This document shows, one piece after another, positions 3,860 to 56,480 of a stretch of 64,000 bases of DNA. The translations under genes and the position numbers were made by a program. Source of the stretch: an uncultured Gemmataceae bacterium (GTDB lineage: Bacteria; Planctomycetota; Planctomycetia; Gemmatales; Gemmataceae); contig CALDUY010000002.1 in the NCBI GenBank assembly GCA_937923405.1, forward strand, positions 682,001 to 746,000, written 5' to 3'. A model generated the notes under the pieces. That model made no database searches and was not told the DNA's origin. It saw nothing but the letters and a program-made list of their open reading frames with translations. How positions within the stretch are numbered: position 1 is the first letter of the stretch; each line of letters begins with the position of its first letter.

Positions 3860-6800
3860 GTGTCACTTGGCTCGAAATCGAAGCGAATGCTTCGGCTGGA
3901 GATTTTGGAAGCGCGAGTCACTCCCGCGACTTTTCTCGTATCCAATACTTCTTCCGCAGACATCCCAGGCAGCCTCACTCGCGCGATTCTCAACGCGAAC
4001 AACTCTGTGGGCATGGACACGATTCAGTTCGATCCGTCTGTATTCGGCCCAGGGTTGAATGAAGCCATCGTTTTGACGAATCCGTTGCCACTCCTCACCG
4101 ACCATGTTCGGATCCTCGGTCCAGACTCGGTCCGCCTGAGCATTCAACGAGCCGACTCTGCTCCCGACTTTCGGATTTTTCAGATCGCTCCTGGTTTGAC
4201 TGTGGAGATCAGCAATCTTCGCCTTGCCAATGGACGGGCAGATCTCGGTGCAGGCATTCTCAATCAGGGATTGCTCTTGCTGCAAAACTCGGTGCTAGAA
4301 TGGAATCAATCGCTCTCGGCTGGGGGGCAAGGCGGCGCGATCGCCAGCTTTCAGTCGTTGACGCTCGTCGACACGCTGATCGCCAACAACTCCGCGGGTG
4401 TCAATGGAACAGGGGGCGGCGTTCTGGTCGGATTCGACAGCCAGTTTTCTAGCTTTAGCTCTACCTTTACTGGAAACACCGCGGCGTTGGGCTCGGCTCT
4501 GTTCATTCAGGGATCAAACGTCTCGTCGCTGTTGCAAAACACCACGATTTCCGGCAACCAGGCGACGGATCCTAACGGCCTGGGCGGCGCGATTTTCGTT
4601 CACACGTTCTTTGGGGAATTTTTTCTCGATCTGCGAAGCACCACCATCGCCAACAACCAAGCTGCACCCGGGGGCATCGGCGGCATCATCAACTTTGGCG
4701 AGGCCAGCACAACTTCCTCGATCGTCTATCAAAACACTCTCTTCGCGGATAATGTCGGTGCCAACTTGTTCGAGGCTCCCGGAAGCTACTTCGGCTCGTT
4801 AATGTCTCTGGGACACAATCTCTCGACCGACAACACGGGCAATCTCACCGCCTCGGGAGATCAGCCCAACACCCCGGCCCTGCTTCGACCCCTGGGCAAC
4901 TATGGCGGACCCGTTCCCACTCATGCTCTGTTGCCTAATAGTCCCGCCATTGATGCCGGACCCGTCCTGATCGACGTTCTCCTGGATGCACGCGGTTTTC
5001 CTCGATCGCTAATCTCCGACATCGGCGCATTCGAGGCCAACTATACCTTCGAGATGTTTTCGGGCAACGCACACTCGATCGCGGCTGGTACCGTCGCGGA
5101 CACGCAGCTGATCGTTCAACTGCTAGAGAGCGGTCAGCCTGCCACGGGCGTTCCCGTCGCCTTCAACGCGCCACTTGGCGTTTCCTTCAACGGAGTGTCC
5201 ACGGTGATCGTGCCCGTGGATGCGTTGGGATTAGCCAAAGCGCCCTTCCTCACCGCGGACACGACTCCGGGACAGTTTTCCGTGCTAGCCAGCGAAGGAG
5301 CCAACACGCTGACCTTCTCAGTGTTGGTGACTCCGGGCCAATTAGCCGGTTACGAAGTCATCCCCGAACTGAGCCAAGTCCTCCCCGGACAGCCGTTCTT
5401 TATCGATGTCAAACCGGTGGATGCCTTCGGCAACCCCTTCCCACTCGACTCGGGCGGACTCAGTTTCACCAGCAGCGACCCTTTAGCCGTCTTACCGGAT
5501 CCTTATACGTTCTCAACGAACCAGGATCTCGGCAATCCGCCGGGAGTCTATCGCATCACAGGTTTCGCCCTGCACACCTTCGGCAACAAGAAGATCACGC
5601 TGACTCCGATCGACACGCAATTGGGAGTATTGCCTGTCGTGGTGTCTCTCCGCGTGTTGAATACCAACGCTCCCTCGCCCTCGATCGGCGAGGACACTAC
5701 GATCATGATCGGTCAGCCGCTCATTCGTTCAGGCAAGATTCTGGACCGGGAGGATAAGACTTTCTCCGTCACTGTGGACTATGGCGATGGCTCCCCAAGC
5801 TCACCGCTGGAAGTGATGGGAGACGGCTCGATCCAGTTGTTCCATCTCTACGCCGAACCCGGCACCTACACCGTGGTCGTCACCGTGGTGGACGACCAAG
5901 CTCGGGTTCGCTCGGCGAGTTTTGACGTCAAGGTGACTCCGATCGGCCAGCCAGCTCTGATCCTCAGTCGGCGTGACGAATTTTCCAATGTTGGCAGTGT
6001 CTTTCAGCGAACCGGCAAGGTCGTGAACGCCAATTTCGCGCAGGCGGTGGTTCTCGTGGACTATGGTGATGGTACACGAGAACAGGCCGCTCTCGATGAG
6101 AACGGGTTCTTCCAACTCCGGCACGTTTACCAGATCGAAGGGTCGTTCATCACGCGAGTGCGGCTGATCGTCGATGGGGTGGTCTTCGATCGACTCGCGT
6201 TCTACGTCGATGTGCTGCTGGCTGGCGTACCGAAAGAAACAGCGGTCAAGGTGCGCATTCCCGCTGGAGAGACCGGCATCGCCGCCGTGCCAGGAGCTAC
6301 GGTGATCTACGACAATAACGGATCTACATTTTCTGCTATTATCGTGGCCATCGTTCCGCTCCATGTCGTCGATCAGCTCGACAAACAGTTCTTCCATAGT
6401 CGCAATCTGACGATCTTTGCTTCGTATGACGTCCGAGCCATCAACGTCAGTCTCAACGATGTCGCTCTGGTCACCTTCTCCTTCCCCGATGTGCCGAATC
6501 GAATCGGCGATCCCGTGTTGACCTTCTTCAATCGACCGACAGGGAAGCAAGAATTCGTCCGCTCTCAGCTGTTCATCATCGACACAGTCAATCGAACTAT
6601 CACCTTCATTTTAGATCGACAAAGTATTCCACGTCTGACTCAACTCACAGGCACCGTCTTCACGATCGCCGCGCCACTGAGTACCACCGTGCCGACCAAT
6701 TTCTCTTCCAGCAGCGGCGTAAACTCGCTCAGTCTGGCGCTGACCGGAGCGGTGCAGGCCTCCCTCTTGCTGACCGAGTCCGAGGACACCATGCTTGCTG

Positions 6801-22192: not shown

Positions 22193-22541
22193 GCTCTCCG
22201 CGAGAGGAAAGCGACCCCCGACTGGTTGGCGTGGTCAAGCAGGGCAACGTCAAACGTACTGATTGAGCAAACAATCAGCCTAGGATCGGGCGACCAGTCA
22301 CAGCGATCATGCCGCGACCGATCGGGGATGGACGGTGGTCTTCGCCAGGGGTCCACCCCTTCGGCAGAGCAGCCGACTGACGAATTGCTTCTCCAGTCCT
22401 GTCTCTTTGCGTCGCCAGCTCGCGCTGACTTTGCCCTTTCGAGGATGAAAGGCGTTATCGATCCAAGCAAGACGTTGATGGTTGCCCCCGAGAACGACAC
22501 CAAAGCTGCCGCTCTCGTTTGCATCAAAACCCTAGATCACA
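22193..22541. other. Intergenic stretch without supported gene
   Basis: About 350 bases between the frameshifted small gene and the GT87 gene. Short ORFs exist on both strands but none has an RBS, domain or plausible composition. Confidence 0.4.
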
Positions 22542-49430: not shown

Positions 49431-49721
49431 TGTGGAGATCGAAGACCTTTTTCACTACGATCTCACTCATCTCCCGTTGGATGGAATTGGCAACAGGATT
49501 CGACGCGAGTTCGAGGACATCACTTCGGTTGATCCGTCTTAGCCAGTTTGATGATCACCTTCTATCTATCGACCCGCGCGGGTGGACTTATGAAGCCCGC
49601 ATACCTATCTTTACTTCCTGCTTTCGAACTTCACGCTGCCCGAGAAGCAGCAAGTGCCGGACCGATTTTTTGTCTACGGTCTGCTGAGTGGATGAATTGT
49701 CACAAGGAGAGTAACAAGGTA

Positions 49722-52427
49722 ATGAAGACCCTCGGTAAATTCGTGGTCTCACTCGCGCTGTTGTTGCTGGCCGCGCTGCCAGTATTCGCGAGTGAAGCCG
49801 ATCTTGCTATTCCTGATCTACATGCTGGTAAGTTCACGATCTTTGGGGTGGAGATCACAGCTTGGTGGTTGCTGTTCTGGGGGGCGTTGGTGATCTGTGG
49901 CACCTTGGGGATCAGCCTCTATCTCAGATACCAAATCGCTAAATTGCCGGCTCATAAATCGATGTTGGACGTCGCAGACGTCATCTTTCAAACCTGCAAA
50001 ACGTATCTCTTCCAGCAAGCCAAGTTTTTGATCTTGTTGTTCCTGCTGATCGCGGCAGCCATCACCTATTATCTAGTCGGTTTCGGACATGAAGAGTATA
50101 CGATGTCCGATCGGATTATGCAGGAATTGCGCCTGTATCCCACCTCCGAGAACGCGATCCCTGAGGACACGCTGAAAAAACTGGAAGGGATGATTAAGGC
50201 TAATGTGACGTTTACCAACGATGAGGGCCAGCACAACGCTCGGGAGAAATTCATTCGGGCGATGCAGGATCAACTGACCGAAGAGGAATGGTCCAAGTAC
50301 GGCGAGACGATCACGAACATCGCTGCTCCTGATCCTCTGACGCCTTTGAACAAGGTGTTACTGGTGTTGCTCTTCTCGGTCGTGGGGATGGGCGGTTCTT
50401 GCTGGGTGGCGTATTACGGCATCCGAGTCAACACCTACGCCAACGCGCGCACGGCCTTTGCCGCGCTGCGGGGTGAACCGTGGCAGGTGGTCAACATCCC
50501 TCTGCGGGCGGGCATGTCGATCGGCCTGTTCCTGATCTCGCTGGAACTGGTCATGATGGTGGTGATTCTCCTCTATGTGCCGCGACAAATCGTTGGCGTC
50601 TGCTTCCTCGGGTTCGCCATCGGTGAGTCGCTCGGCGCGTCGGCTTTACGTATCGCGGGTGGTATCTTCACTAAGATCGCCGATATCGGCTCGGACCTGA
50701 TGAAGATCGTCTTCAAGGTCAAAGAAGACGATCCGCGTAATCCGGGCGTGATCGCTGACTGTACTGGCGACAATGCGGGCGACTCGGTCGGCCCGACTGC
50801 TGACGGGTTCGAGACCTACGGCGTCACTGGTGTGGCTCTGATCGCCTTCATTTCGTTGGCGGTCAACAGTATTGACGTGCAGGCCAAGCTCATCGTTTGG
50901 ATCTTCGCCATGCGCTTCCTGATGGACTTCATGTCGGGGGCGTCTTATTTCGTCAATCAAGCCATTTCCGAGAAGAAGTATCAGGGATTGAAGGAATTCA
51001 ACTTTGAAGAGCCTTTAACTCGCTTGATCTGGATTGCTTCGATTCTCTGTATCTCCACCTCGTTCTTCATGAGTTGGCTGTTGCTCAGCGACATTCGAGT
51101 GCCCGGTGTGGACAGTGCTCAGCTTTCCGGGTTATGGTGGCAGCTGGCCGCCATCATCAGCTGTGGCACGCTTGCCGCAGTCTTGATCCCTGAGTTTACC
51201 AAGATCTTCACCAGTTCCCACTCCAAACATGTCAGTGAAATCGTCACCGCCAGCCGGGAAGGCGGTTCCTCGCTGACCATTCTGTCCGGCATTGTCGCGG
51301 GCAACTTCAGCGCCTTCTGGAAAGGCATACTGATCGCCTCCTTGATGACGATCGCCTATTTCATCAGTCAGTTCGGCCTGGATCTCATCATGAGTGTCCA
51401 GCTGACTCCGGGGGGGCCCCTGATTGGAGTAGGTTCGATCTTTGCTTTCGGGTTGGTGGCGTTTGGCTTCCTCTGCATGGGGCCTGTCACTATCGCCGTC
51501 GATAGCTACGGACCAGTGACGGACAACGCCCAGTCAGTCTTCGAGTTAGCCCAGACAGAGAGCATTCCTGGCATCAAGGAAGAGATCAAACGCGATTTCG
51601 GTTTTGAGCCGGACTTCGAGCGTGGCAAGCACTATCTGGAAGCCAACGACTCTGCCGGCAACACGTTCAAGGCGACGGCCAAGCCGGTCTTGATCGGCAC
51701 CGCAGTCGTCGGAGCGACCACGATGATCTTCTCGATCATTCTGCTGTTGGGCAAAGCCGGCACGCTCAGTCTCGATCTAACCAAAGCCCCAGTGTTGCTC
51801 GGCTTCATCTGCGGTGGAGCAGTCATCTTCTGGTTCTCCGGAGCCTCCATGCAGGCTGTCGTCACCGGTGCCTATCGGGCCGTCGAGTACATTAAAAAGA
51901 ACATGAATCTGGACAAGGCCGAAGCGGATACGGAAGATTCCAAAACGGTTGTCCGGATCTGCACCGAGTATGCCCAATCTGGGATGTGGAACATCTTCAT
52001 CGCGCTGATGATGATGACCTTGGCGTTCGCCTTCTTTGACCCCAACTTCTTCGTGGCCTATCTGATTTCGATCGCCATCTTTGGTCTGTTCCAGGCGATC
52101 TACATGGCCAATGCCGGCGGAGCTTGGGATAACGCCAAGAAGCTCGTCGAAGTGGATCTGCGGGAGAAGAACACGCCGGTTCATGAGGCGACCGTGGTCG
52201 GCGACACCGTCGGCGATCCGTTCAAGGACACGACCTCGGTAGCGCTCAACCCGATCATCAAATTCTCGACACTGTTTGGCCTGCTGGCCGTCGAAATTGC
52301 TGTCGAGGTGAAGAACGCTCGTGCTACCGACTATACTCCGTTTGTTGGAGTGGCTCTTTTGGTGATCGGTTTGTACTTCGTCTGGCGTTCCTTCTACGCG
52401 ATGCGAATTCCGGAGAAAATCAAGTAA
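49722..52427 (+). CDS. hppA: Membrane-bound ion-pumping pyrophosphatase, divergent subfamily
   Basis: 901 aa from the ATG at 49722 (GGAG 12 bases upstream). It hydrolyses PPi and pumps H+ and/or Na+ across the membrane. The substrate-binding core is clear: DIGSDLMKIV, then EDDPRNPGVIADCTGDNAGD (about 335-354) and SVGPTADGFETYGVTG, then TVAVDSYGPVTDNAQS-like and GNTFKATAKPVLIGTAVVGA (about 646-665). The wording CTGDNAGDSVGPTADGFETY differs from classical pumps (NVGDNVGDCAGMAADLFE) and resembles a divergent group in Bacteroidetes and related phyla. Lys in GNTFKAT is at the position tied to K+ independence. Extra features are a signal-like N-terminus and an ~75-residue charged loop at about 125-200, making it longer than usual. 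Confidence 0.93.
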   Translation: MKTLGKFVVSLALLLLAALPVFASEADLAIPDLHAGKFTIFGVEITAWWLLFWGALVICGTLGISLYLRYQIAKLPAHKSMLDVADVIFQTCKTYLFQQAKFLILLFLLIAAAITYYLVGFGHEEYTMSDRIMQELRLYPTSENAIPEDTLKKLEGMIKANVTFTNDEGQHNAREKFIRAMQDQLTEEEWSKYGETITNIAAPDPLTPLNKVLLVLLFSVVGMGGSCWVAYYGIRVNTYANARTAFAALRGEPWQVVNIPLRAGMSIGLFLISLELVMMVVILLYVPRQIVGVCFLGFAIGESLGASALRIAGGIFTKIADIGSDLMKIVFKVKEDDPRNPGVIADCTGDNAGDSVGPTADGFETYGVTGVALIAFISLAVNSIDVQAKLIVWIFAMRFLMDFMSGASYFVNQAISEKKYQGLKEFNFEEPLTRLIWIASILCISTSFFMSWLLLSDIRVPGVDSAQLSGLWWQLAAIISCGTLAAVLIPEFTKIFTSSHSKHVSEIVTASREGGSSLTILSGIVAGNFSAFWKGILIASLMTIAYFISQFGLDLIMSVQLTPGGPLIGVGSIFAFGLVAFGFLCMGPVTIAVDSYGPVTDNAQSVFELAQTESIPGIKEEIKRDFGFEPDFERGKHYLEANDSAGNTFKATAKPVLIGTAVVGATTMIFSIILLLGKAGTLSLDLTKAPVLLGFICGGAVIFWFSGASMQAVVTGAYRAVEYIKKNMNLDKAEADTEDSKTVVRICTEYAQSGMWNIFIALMMMTLAFAFFDPNFFVAYLISIAIFGLFQAIYMANAGGAWDNAKKLVEVDLREKNTPVHEATVVGDTVGDPFKDTTSVALNPIIKFSTLFGLLAVEIAVEVKNARATDYTPFVGVALLVIGLYFVWRSFYAMRIPEKIK

Positions 52428-54256: not shown

Positions 54257-56353
54257 TTATTTGGACTTACTCAGTGCCATAAAGACGTTGTCGCTCTCCA
54301 ACGGGAGCTGGAAGGCATCGGCTACGCGCGTCATGTAGTGTCCTCGGCTTGTCCACCAGATCAGGTCGACTGCTTGCTCCTTGCCTAGTTGTTCAATCAA
54401 CTGCTTGACGTCGGCATCGGTGATCGACGAAGGTGAAACAGCTTGCTTCCAGGCGAAAGAAAAGGCGACCCTTTCCTCGGGAGAAAAGTTGGACCAGTCT
54501 CCTGAAGCTAGTTGCTCAAATCGATCCCGAATTTGCTTGTCGGTTAGGCCCGCGACCGCGAGCAGCATTTCGCAATGTCCCATTCAGTAAAAGCAGCTGA
54601 TCGAGCGGTTGATGACCCAAAAGACACTCTCGTTGAACACGCGATCTGGGTGAGCTTCCTGGGAATAAGCTCGCGTGCAGGCCATCCAGGCGTTTGTCAG
54701 TTCTGGTTGATACCCTTGGCAAACTTGCATCCATTTGAGCCGGAGATACGTCTCTCCCATTTTCCCCATTTGAGAGGCTCGTTCTTTTAATATCTCTTGA
54801 GAGGGAGTCGGAATACGGATTGAGCGTGCCTTCTGTGATTCCATACTTTTCATCAATTCAGCAAAATCGATCGGCTCCCAATCTGGACGTTCGACATAGG
54901 ACAAGGTGGGCCGATCGATCGGCTTGAGACGCTTTGGAGCCATTGTCGATCGATCGGAAGGATCAGTCTGAACGTTCAAGGAAGGCAACACTGGACCAGA
55001 GACACCTAGCGAGAGAACGAGACGATCCTGAAAGTTGGCGTAGGCCAGTAACTTCACCAAGGCGACCAGTTTGGCCTCACCCAGTTGTTTTCTTAGCTGC
55101 TCTATTTCGTCATCGCTGACCGAGTAGGCTGCCAGAGTCAGAGTGCGTGCGAAACGGAGAATTCGCCGTTCGTCTTCGTTTGTGGCAGTGGGATCAGACA
55201 GCCCTGCACGACGCAAGTCATTAAGGGCTTGCATCTTAGTCCATTCGCACTGGTTGGCCACTGCCGCTGCGTAACGAACCTTTGCCGACAAACTTGCTCC
55301 CAGCGGGTTCGCCTCGCGATGCAAACGATCGAGTTCGAGCATAGCAGCAGTGGTCGCCGGCAGCGGTCCCGCCAAGGTGCGCGCCCAGTCGGGCAACGGC
55401 TTTCCTTGGTCCGGTCCTCGTAACGGTAAGCGGTTCCACACGGCGTCGGTGTCCAGTTTTTCAAACCGTGGAGCTTTGGGGAGTAGTCCGCGTTGTCGAA
55501 ACCACTCCTCGGCTCGTTCAGGCCAGCGAGTTACTGGCTGATCCGTTCGCCGCAAGCCATAGCCGTGCCCACCTGTTTCCCAGACGTGCAGTTCCGCGGG
55601 CACCCCAGCCTTTTTGAGGGCTAAGTACATCAACGCGCTGGATTCGGAGGTCACTGGATCGTCATGGGCATGCACTAACAACGTTGGCGGAGTCTCCTTG
55701 GTGACGCGATATTCGTCGGCGAGCTTGGTTCGGGACTTATCTGCCAGGTAGCCTGGATAGACGAGTACCGCAAAATCGGGCCGACAACTGACGGCATCGA
55801 GTTTATCCACAGCTTCATAGGCACGCTTGTCCCAGTTCGTGGAAGCTAGCGCGGCGAGGCTTCCACCAGCTGAAAAGCCGAGTATTCCTATCTTGTTTGG
55901 GTCTATTTTCCATTCAGCGGCATGATGTCGCGTGATACTCAATGCTCGTTGTGCATCCATCAACGCCGGCAGATAGTACAAGCCAGTCTTGGGGCGAGGC
56001 ACTCGGTACTTCAAGAGCACCGCCGTGATGCCGAGGGTGTTCAACCATTCACAGACCTCAGTGCCCTCTAGATCAAGTGCGAGGATGTGATAGCCACCAC
56101 CAGGGCAGACGATCACACAGGTTCCCGTGTCTCGTTCCTTGGTGGGTTTGTAGATCGTGAGGGTCGGTTTGGACACGTTGCCCAGGCGAATCACCCGTCG
56201 GCCAGCAACCAGACCTTCGCCAGCCTTCGTTTGATCTTTCTCTTCACTGGTCGCGGCGATCACTCCGGGAGCAGGCCCCGGCCAAAGTTCAACAACTCGC
56301 GGTTTGTCCGCGGCGGCGACCAGCAAGGAAACGGCTAGCGTTACTGAGAGCAT
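54257..56353 (-). CDS. Exported alpha/beta hydrolase fused to two AhpD-like (CMD) domains; probable selenoprotein (in-frame TGA)
   Basis: Read through the TGA at 54586-54584, this is 698 aa with Sec at 590. A short signal precedes an esterase-like alpha/beta hydrolase: CPGGGYH oxyanion segment, GFSAGGS nucleophile, HAHDDP acid and GGHGYG histidine. Two carboxymuconolactone decarboxylase/AhpD-like domains follow. The first (about 345-470) keeps a single Cys in ANQCEWTKM. In the second, NESVFWVINRSISCFY is followed by TGA and then MGHCEMLLAVAGLTDKQ, matching the family CxxC...H active site with TGA replacing the second Cys; the Glu is 12 residues before the first Cys, as in AhpD. A SECIS-like hairpin lies just downstream. 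If the TGA is a true stop, the product is a 589-aa protein lacking its active site. Convergent with the CSPG-repeat gene. Confidence 0.75.
54548..54563 (-). promoter_or_regulatory. SECIS-like hairpin following the in-frame TGA
   Basis: On the mRNA, GCUCGC-GGUC-GCGGGC forms a 6-bp stem (one U-G pair) with a GGUC loop. The loop begins 26 nt after the UGA. Bacterial SECIS elements are short hairpins in the coding sequence just after UGA, with a G (and usually U) in the apical loop contacting SelB; the E. coli fdhF hairpin also carries GGUC. Position and loop fit; the stem is short. Confidence 0.55.
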
Positions 56354-56480
56354 GTCTCAACACTCCTTGGAGAAAACTTAAGGAATGTTATCATGACCCA
56401 GTCAGGAGCGAATGGCAAGATCCCTGCGGGGGATCACGAGGTGCTTACTGTCTTTGGATCGAGTTTTTGGAAAGAGTCTG

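Follow-up and report, generated by a model that had tools for sequence, protein, structure and literature searches.

Selenoproteins of the AhpD/CMD type that carry a Cys-x-x-selenocysteine (CxxU) motif were found in the GOS and Sargasso Sea surveys, and a 2026 review lists them (PMC1088965, PMC2398784, PMC13188914), so the kind of enzyme considered here is already known. Described forms include NF041238 (CFYUT; "hypothetical protein 1" of the Sargasso Sea) and the AhpD-like selenoproteins of PF02627 (CxxU) CMD and COG2128 / TIGR01926. The same fold occurs in the debrominase Bmp8 and in AhpD-core peroxidases (PDB 6ohi, 2prr, 6k40), and the His of AhpD-core proteins stands at +4 from the second Cys, going by the residue numbers in PMC4674687. 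Two AhpD-like domains per chain are found in Sestrin2 and in the fused AhpD dimers of bacteria that resemble Sestrins. Among the bacterial proteins, some have the Cys pair in the C-terminal domain only (PMC11429811), and Sestrins have a lone Cys in the N-terminal domain, with an electronegative C-terminal hinge, DDYDY, replacing the active site (PMC4674687, PMC11429811).

Here we describe a gene on a 64,000-nucleotide stretch of DNA (the window) from an uncultured Gemmataceae bacterium, in which an in-frame TGA is very probably (about 0.95) decoded as selenocysteine (Sec). Its product has in common with NF041238 the CxxU in an AhpD-like C-terminal domain, the two-domain length and the CFYU motif, but differs in having MGH in place of the T of CFYUT and in the planctomycete fusions. 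It shares fold and CxxU with the PF02627, COG2128 and TIGR01926 selenoproteins, but has two domains, the second of which carries the active site. The resemblance to Bmp8 extends from the fold to a CxYC followed by His at +3, matching the spacing in the window, although Bmp8 and the AhpD-core peroxidases are single-domain proteins with Cys instead of Sec and <20% identity to the window protein. Unlike Sestrin, which it resembles in having two AhpD-like domains per chain, the window protein has its active-site CxxU in the C-terminal domain, contrary to the Sestrin definition, and a search for Sestrin resemblance at the sequence level gave no match. The CMD-CMD part looks like a selenium version of the bacterial Sestrin-like layout with a C-terminal Cys pair. 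Deiodinase-like selenoproteins (PF00837) are an N-terminal fusion or neighbour in related CMD selenoproteins, whereas the window gene has a hydrolase there.

The first-pass annotation had proposed that a hydrolase plus two-CMD-domain selenoprotein may be new. The enzyme type is not, as the published CxxU proteins show; the combination may be, since no curated family cut-off is passed by the AhpD-like part and no report of a hydrolase fusion was found, the text of the 2026 review (PMC13188914) mentioning no planctomycete and no hydrolase. The subfamily, its RNA signal and the hydrolase fusion appear to be undescribed in the papers and model libraries searched; the supplement of PMC4807772, the Porphyra planctomycete paper, lists planctomycete selenoprotein candidates, among which the family could already figure.

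Reading frame and conservation of the TGA codon

The gene and its central features are as follows.
54257..56353, minus strand: predicted selenoprotein gene, 698 residues read through the TGA (translation with TGA = U; full-length homology)
54584..54586, minus strand: TGA, probable selenocysteine codon, residue 590 (sequence; same codon conserved in homologues)
54584..54595, minus strand: CFYU redox motif, C587 and U590 (invariant among TGA forms)
56363..56368, minus strand: Shine-Dalgarno-like AAGGAG, 10-15 nt 5' of the ATG start (sequence)

Translated with TGA as U, the frame from 56353 to 54257 comprises 698 codons and is interrupted once, by an in-frame TGA: 589 codons upstream, from the ATG start at 56353, and 108 sense codons 3' of it, ending in TAA at 54259-54257. 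The TGA occupies the second position of a CxxC motif, in the codon series Cys-Phe-Tyr-TGA-Met-Gly-His-Cys. Retranslation bore out the coordinates, motif and downstream codons of the first-pass annotation; three of its other points needed amendment. A Glu 12 residues before the first Cys, given as a hallmark of AhpD/CMD enzymes, is present in the window gene, yet it is no family constant (Glu in 24, Asn in 19, Gln in 7 and another residue in 11 of the TGA forms). The active-site His lies at +3, not +4, from the second CxxU position, as in Bmp8 and unlike classical AhpD. The third point concerns the CMD domains, the first of which is without the redox pair.

Codons 3' of the TGA align end to end with homologues at ~40-50% identity and, in close pairs of relatives, pN is far below pS in this stretch, which together argue that the downstream reading frame is not due to chance. 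Among close relatives, dN/dS is mostly ~0.04-0.4 over the 107-120 codons 3' of the TGA, similar to the stretch 5' of it; a genuine stop would not be expected to precede a protein so constrained.

A protein search of 59 related genomes, with no condition on the codon at the site, yielded 24 clear MGH-type members including the window gene, 16 with TGA, eight with TGC and none with any other stop or sense codon, the TGA-or-Cys alternation anticipated for a selenoprotein. A degenerate-pattern scan for CFY(TGA)MGHx[EQ]M across 84,980 species, with one genome per species, gave 57 TGA stretches, essentially all labelled Planctomycetota and a few just "bacterium", the matches including the cultured Aquisphaera insulae (JC669) and Gemmata sp. 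(IIL30). A phylum-wide sample of 392 genomes held the family in five only, too sparse for a distribution test, and the plasmids searched gave no match.

A maximum-likelihood tree built on 74 rows requires three changes of the Sec/Cys label, the direction of which is inferred because the root was placed at the midpoint. Two Cys-form groups are nested within a large Sec clade, and the family seems to lose Sec with the hairpin described below disappearing along with it. One Sec form, L089 (CYY-TGA-LGH), sits in a separate, otherwise Cys clade and seems to have gained Sec independently, its SECIS sequence being identical. At this locus (frame +1, site codon 1157, CYY-TGA-LGHQE) the TGA is followed by the same CUCGCGGUCGCGGG hairpin, and the other genomes seen have Cys. 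Another relative, L061 (frame +1; G044:C110), is an 859-codon frame, open at its left edge, with two Cys-type double-CMD units in tandem.

A conserved hairpin downstream of the TGA

54548..54563, minus strand: predicted SECIS hairpin GCUCGC-GGUC-GCGGGC, loop 54557-54554, 26 nt 3' of the UGA (covariation; -9.5 kcal/mol)

Published rules for bacterial SECIS elements (bSECIS; PMC13188914) specify a loop of 3-9 nt, a stem of 4-16 bp, a G in the first two loop positions, a position 16-37 nt after the UGA and an energy <= -7.5 kcal/mol. With its 4-nt loop (GGUC), 6-bp stem, spacing of 26 nt and -9.5 kcal/mol, the hairpin conforms to all of these. The hairpin follows the UGA in 59 TGA loci; pairing was evaluated on 58 distinct rows, and codons were compared in 61 TGA-form sequences. 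In the latter, codons +8 to +11 read CTC GCG GTC GCG with almost no exception, despite free third positions, while third positions of the adjacent conserved Gly, His and Glu codons vary as expected; this is not a selection effect, because the scan pattern left codons +8 to +11 out. Across 12 TGC forms these codons are variable, with Glu (GAG/GAA) at +9 in 11.

All hairpin cells (100%) are paired across the 58 distinct rows, and two pairs show two-sided changes, in 14 cells as against 1.9 in shuffles, a signal abolished by partner sliding. Pair 24-39 occurs as GC, CG, AU, UA and UG, and RNAalifold recovers the same hairpin unaided. Taken alone, the 43-nt stretch has another structure as its minimum-energy fold (z -0.5); the evidence for the hairpin is this covariation. 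It is absent from the Cys forms, and its restriction to TGA forms supports the proposed selenoprotein reading. No Rfam SECIS family matches it; a covariance model built from it scored 73.3 bits at the window gene and 65.0 at a paralogue on contig C8 when run over the whole genome, the next match reaching 16.9. The RNA signal also shapes the protein: the +9 residue is Ala in Sec forms, its codon belonging to the hairpin, and mostly Glu in Cys forms.

Selenocysteine machinery

The first-pass annotation had proposed a search for selA, selB, selD and tRNA-Sec, and all four are present above cut-offs in the window's genome (5.78 Mb, 56 contigs, 93% complete). There is one tRNA-Sec (71.6 bits, anticodon TCA); selB (394 bits) and selA (562 bits) are adjacent on contig C27 and exceed their curated cut-offs, as does selD (286 bits) on contig C7, which is part of an Ndh-SelD fusion with a CGGC motif. 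This fusion (737 residues; G000:C7:241783-242718; L049 1390-3603, minus strand) has its CxxC in the SelD part and is of a type already described (PMC2398784).

All 13 TGA-bearing genomes in the sample of relatives have at least one strong Sec-machinery gene, with selA over cut-off in 11. For tRNA-Sec, only matches well above 60 bits were accepted, with selA/selB serving as the markers for G017, G003 and G034; many matches of ~50 bits were set aside as probable serine-type tRNAs. In G044, selA is split across two contigs, each part falling under the cut-off, and the tRNA-Sec is strong. G017 carries TGA genes and gave no tRNA-Sec and no selA, likely an assembly gap, since selB is over cut-off there on contig C81 with only part of the gene matching. 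G010 and G058, which have TGC forms only, are without selA, selB or a convincing tRNA-Sec. Taken together, the machinery, the TGA/TGC homologues, the covarying SECIS and this co-occurrence across genomes support the CxxU reading of the first-pass annotation.

Alternative explanations

Were the TGA a genuine stop, the functional product would be 589 residues long, a hydrolase with the first CMD domain, and the 108 codons beyond it would be decaying after a recent nonsense mutation or as a pseudogene. The standard code does stop at TGA and an ATG lies immediately 3' of it, but dozens of diverged genomes have TGA at this very codon, the protein sequence beyond it is under purifying selection, a conserved SECIS is confined to the TGA forms, and the genome has the full Sec machinery, which leaves this explanation very improbable. 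A sequencing or assembly error hiding a true Cys codon (TGC/TGT) would need a single base, TGA and TGC being one base apart, and the window sequence is known from an assembly. We give this next to no credence: the same TGA is present in many independent assemblies and in the C8 paralogue of the same genome, and the window gene has the GCG (Ala) of TGA forms at +9 and the whole hairpin, where Cys forms mostly have Glu. Reading of TGA as Trp or Cys, through read-through without Sec or a reassigned code, is hardly credible either. The C8 paralogue terminates with an ordinary TGA, so TGA is still a stop in this genome, as it also is in several relatives; homologues that differ at the site invariably have Cys, with which Sec usually exchanges; and both SECIS and tRNA-Sec are present.

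A separate question is whether the hydrolase fusion is an artefact, with a real selenoprotein and its neighbouring gene joined by mis-assembly or a sequencing indel. The fusion is found in no other genome, the 38% identical hydrolase of Aquisphaera insulae is a separate gene just upstream of its CMD gene, and the stand-alone hydrolases of relatives end near the fusion point; being known from one assembly only, the junction could be a local mis-assembly. We nevertheless consider an artefact unlikely, as neither a stop nor a leftover second signal peptide is seen at the junction, the frame, GC3 and domain boundaries run smoothly through it, and 294 + 295 codons are open before the TGA. Selenocysteine decoding within a fusion gene is the reading followed below.

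Domain organization and predicted structure

56306..56353, minus strand: hydrophobic N-terminus, residues 1-16, possible secretion signal (sequence only)
55472..56353, minus strand: alpha/beta serine hydrolase, BD-FAE / PaeX-like esterase, residues 1-294 (PF07859, PF20434, NF041902, PDB 6a6o)
55862..55879, minus strand: GFSAGG nucleophile elbow, Ser of the catalytic triad (sequence)
55655..55672, minus strand: HAHDDP, putative triad Asp (sequence)
55556..55573, minus strand: GGHGYG, putative triad His (sequence)
55007..55360, minus strand: first CMD/AhpD-like domain, without CxxC (AF2 helices; PF02627 E 0.004, below cut-off)
54296..54736, minus strand: second CMD/AhpD-like domain, with CxxU (AF2; matches to 2pfx and Bmp8; NF041238 26.7 bits, below cut-off)

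The fusion protein is probably exported, judging from its hydrophobic N-terminus, although this lacks the positive charge typical of signal peptides; stand-alone relatives likewise start with signal-like N-termini. The hydrolase domain matches PF07859 (2.2e-16) and PF20434 (BD-FAE; 4.1e-15) over their cut-offs and the PaeX equivalog NF041902 under its own (184 bits against 550). Its closest solved structure is PDB 6a6o (4.8e-44), and the Ser-Asp-His motifs (GFSAGG, HDDP, GGHG) are intact in the sequence.

Residues 295-698 form two AhpD/CMD domains, both present as first annotated, although the redox pair is confined to the second; the first has a lone, non-conserved Cys in NQCEWTK and matches AhpD-type PDB chains at 2.6e-7 with the A2 profile. 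The AF2 model is of high confidence (mean pLDDT 94.9, pTM 0.94), and the all-helical AhpD fold is apparent by structure, AhpD-type PDB entries matching with TMt 0.65-0.77 and prob 1.0. In Foldseek, Sestrin2 matched across both CMD domains (8.4e-6, TM about 0.5-0.6) with an rmsd of 8-12 A, so the orientation of the domains may differ from that in Sestrin2; Bmp8 and AhpD-core proteins followed, over one domain. Of the AhpD active-site features, CxYU is present, alongside the family-variable Glu and the Bmp8-like His noted above. Sequence models match weakly, which places the window protein outside PF02627 (17.6 bits against a cut-off of 23), TIGR01926 (37.9 against 81.8) and NF041238 (AhpD_rel_CFYUT equivalog; 26.7 against 175) by their cut-offs. 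At E<=0.01, 16 of the 38 alignment members match PF02627 and 38 of 38 match TIGR01926. Membership of NF041238 and TIGR01926 was rejected on the cut-offs.

Fusions, a paralogue and relatives with two UGA codons

Among the 77 frames collected, the window gene alone is fused to a hydrolase. In Aquisphaera insulae the separate hydrolase gene lies directly upstream of the CMD selenoprotein gene, an adjacency that suggests that the two proteins are functionally linked and that gene order provided a route to fusion. The C8 paralogue (G000:C8:41023-42237; L052 about 4989-6323, minus strand), a second CMD selenoprotein of the same genome, is stand-alone with a signal-like N-terminus and has the same in-frame TGA.

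Other relatives have, in the place of the hydrolase, an EF-hand and a deiodinase-like domain (PF00837, 1.8e-28), the latter fused to CMD in 16 cases and encoded by a neighbouring gene in four. In the fused proteins, a Cys CMD is paired with a Cys deiodinase-like site in four of four, and a Sec CMD with Cys in seven and Sec in five. An in-frame TGA in the deiodinase-like sequence (FGSFT-TGA-GPFRSQ) is seen in the fused L053, L054, L064, L085 and L093 and in a separate upstream gene at L004, L096 and L117. Each deiodinase-like UGA codon found has its own conserved 3' hairpin (such as GAUCCCAGUUUGGGGUC), missing in Cys forms, and because of these hairpins the fusions with two UGAs look like two-Sec proteins.

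Proposed function

We propose that the organism's own SelA/SelB/SelD/tRNA-Sec system would decode the TGA, with Sec insertion directed by the SECIS hairpin 26 nt downstream, within the coding sequence. The product would be a protein of 698 residues in which a serine esterase/hydrolase is fused to a two-domain, Sestrin-shaped AhpD/CMD oxidoreductase bearing Cys-x-x-Sec in its second domain. By analogy of fold and motif, Sec or its Cys partner may attack an oxidised or halogenated organic compound such as a hydroperoxide, after which a Cys-Sec bridge would form and be reduced by a thiol donor; the hydrolase could cooperate by releasing or handling an esterified form of the substrate. Hydroperoxide reduction is a putative assignment to which we attach somewhat less than even odds. 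Broader still, and doubtful at present, is the idea that planctomycetes possess an extracytoplasmic module dependent on selenium. In it, a double-AhpD selenoenzyme of Sestrin shape would be linked, either within one protein or through gene order, with a deiodinase-like selenoenzyme or with a hydrolase of the BD-FAE type, and the partners would share one reaction on organic substrates; the reduction of hydroperoxides and the reductive dehalogenation of esterified aromatics derived from algae or plants are examples.

Under standard annotation the gene would fall apart into a truncated hydrolase and a fragment of 108 residues, a fate that dozens of its planctomycete relatives would share. The fusions, with the hydrolase here and with deiodinase-like domains elsewhere, some of them apparently two-Sec, offer concrete pairs for probing the roles of AhpD-like and deiodinase-like bacterial selenoproteins.

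Other features of the window

A c-di-GMP-I riboswitch is found at 22360-22445 on the minus strand (58.2 bits). On the plus strand, 49548-52427 encodes a 959-aa membrane ORF that, by eye only, resembles a proton- or sodium-pumping pyrophosphatase.
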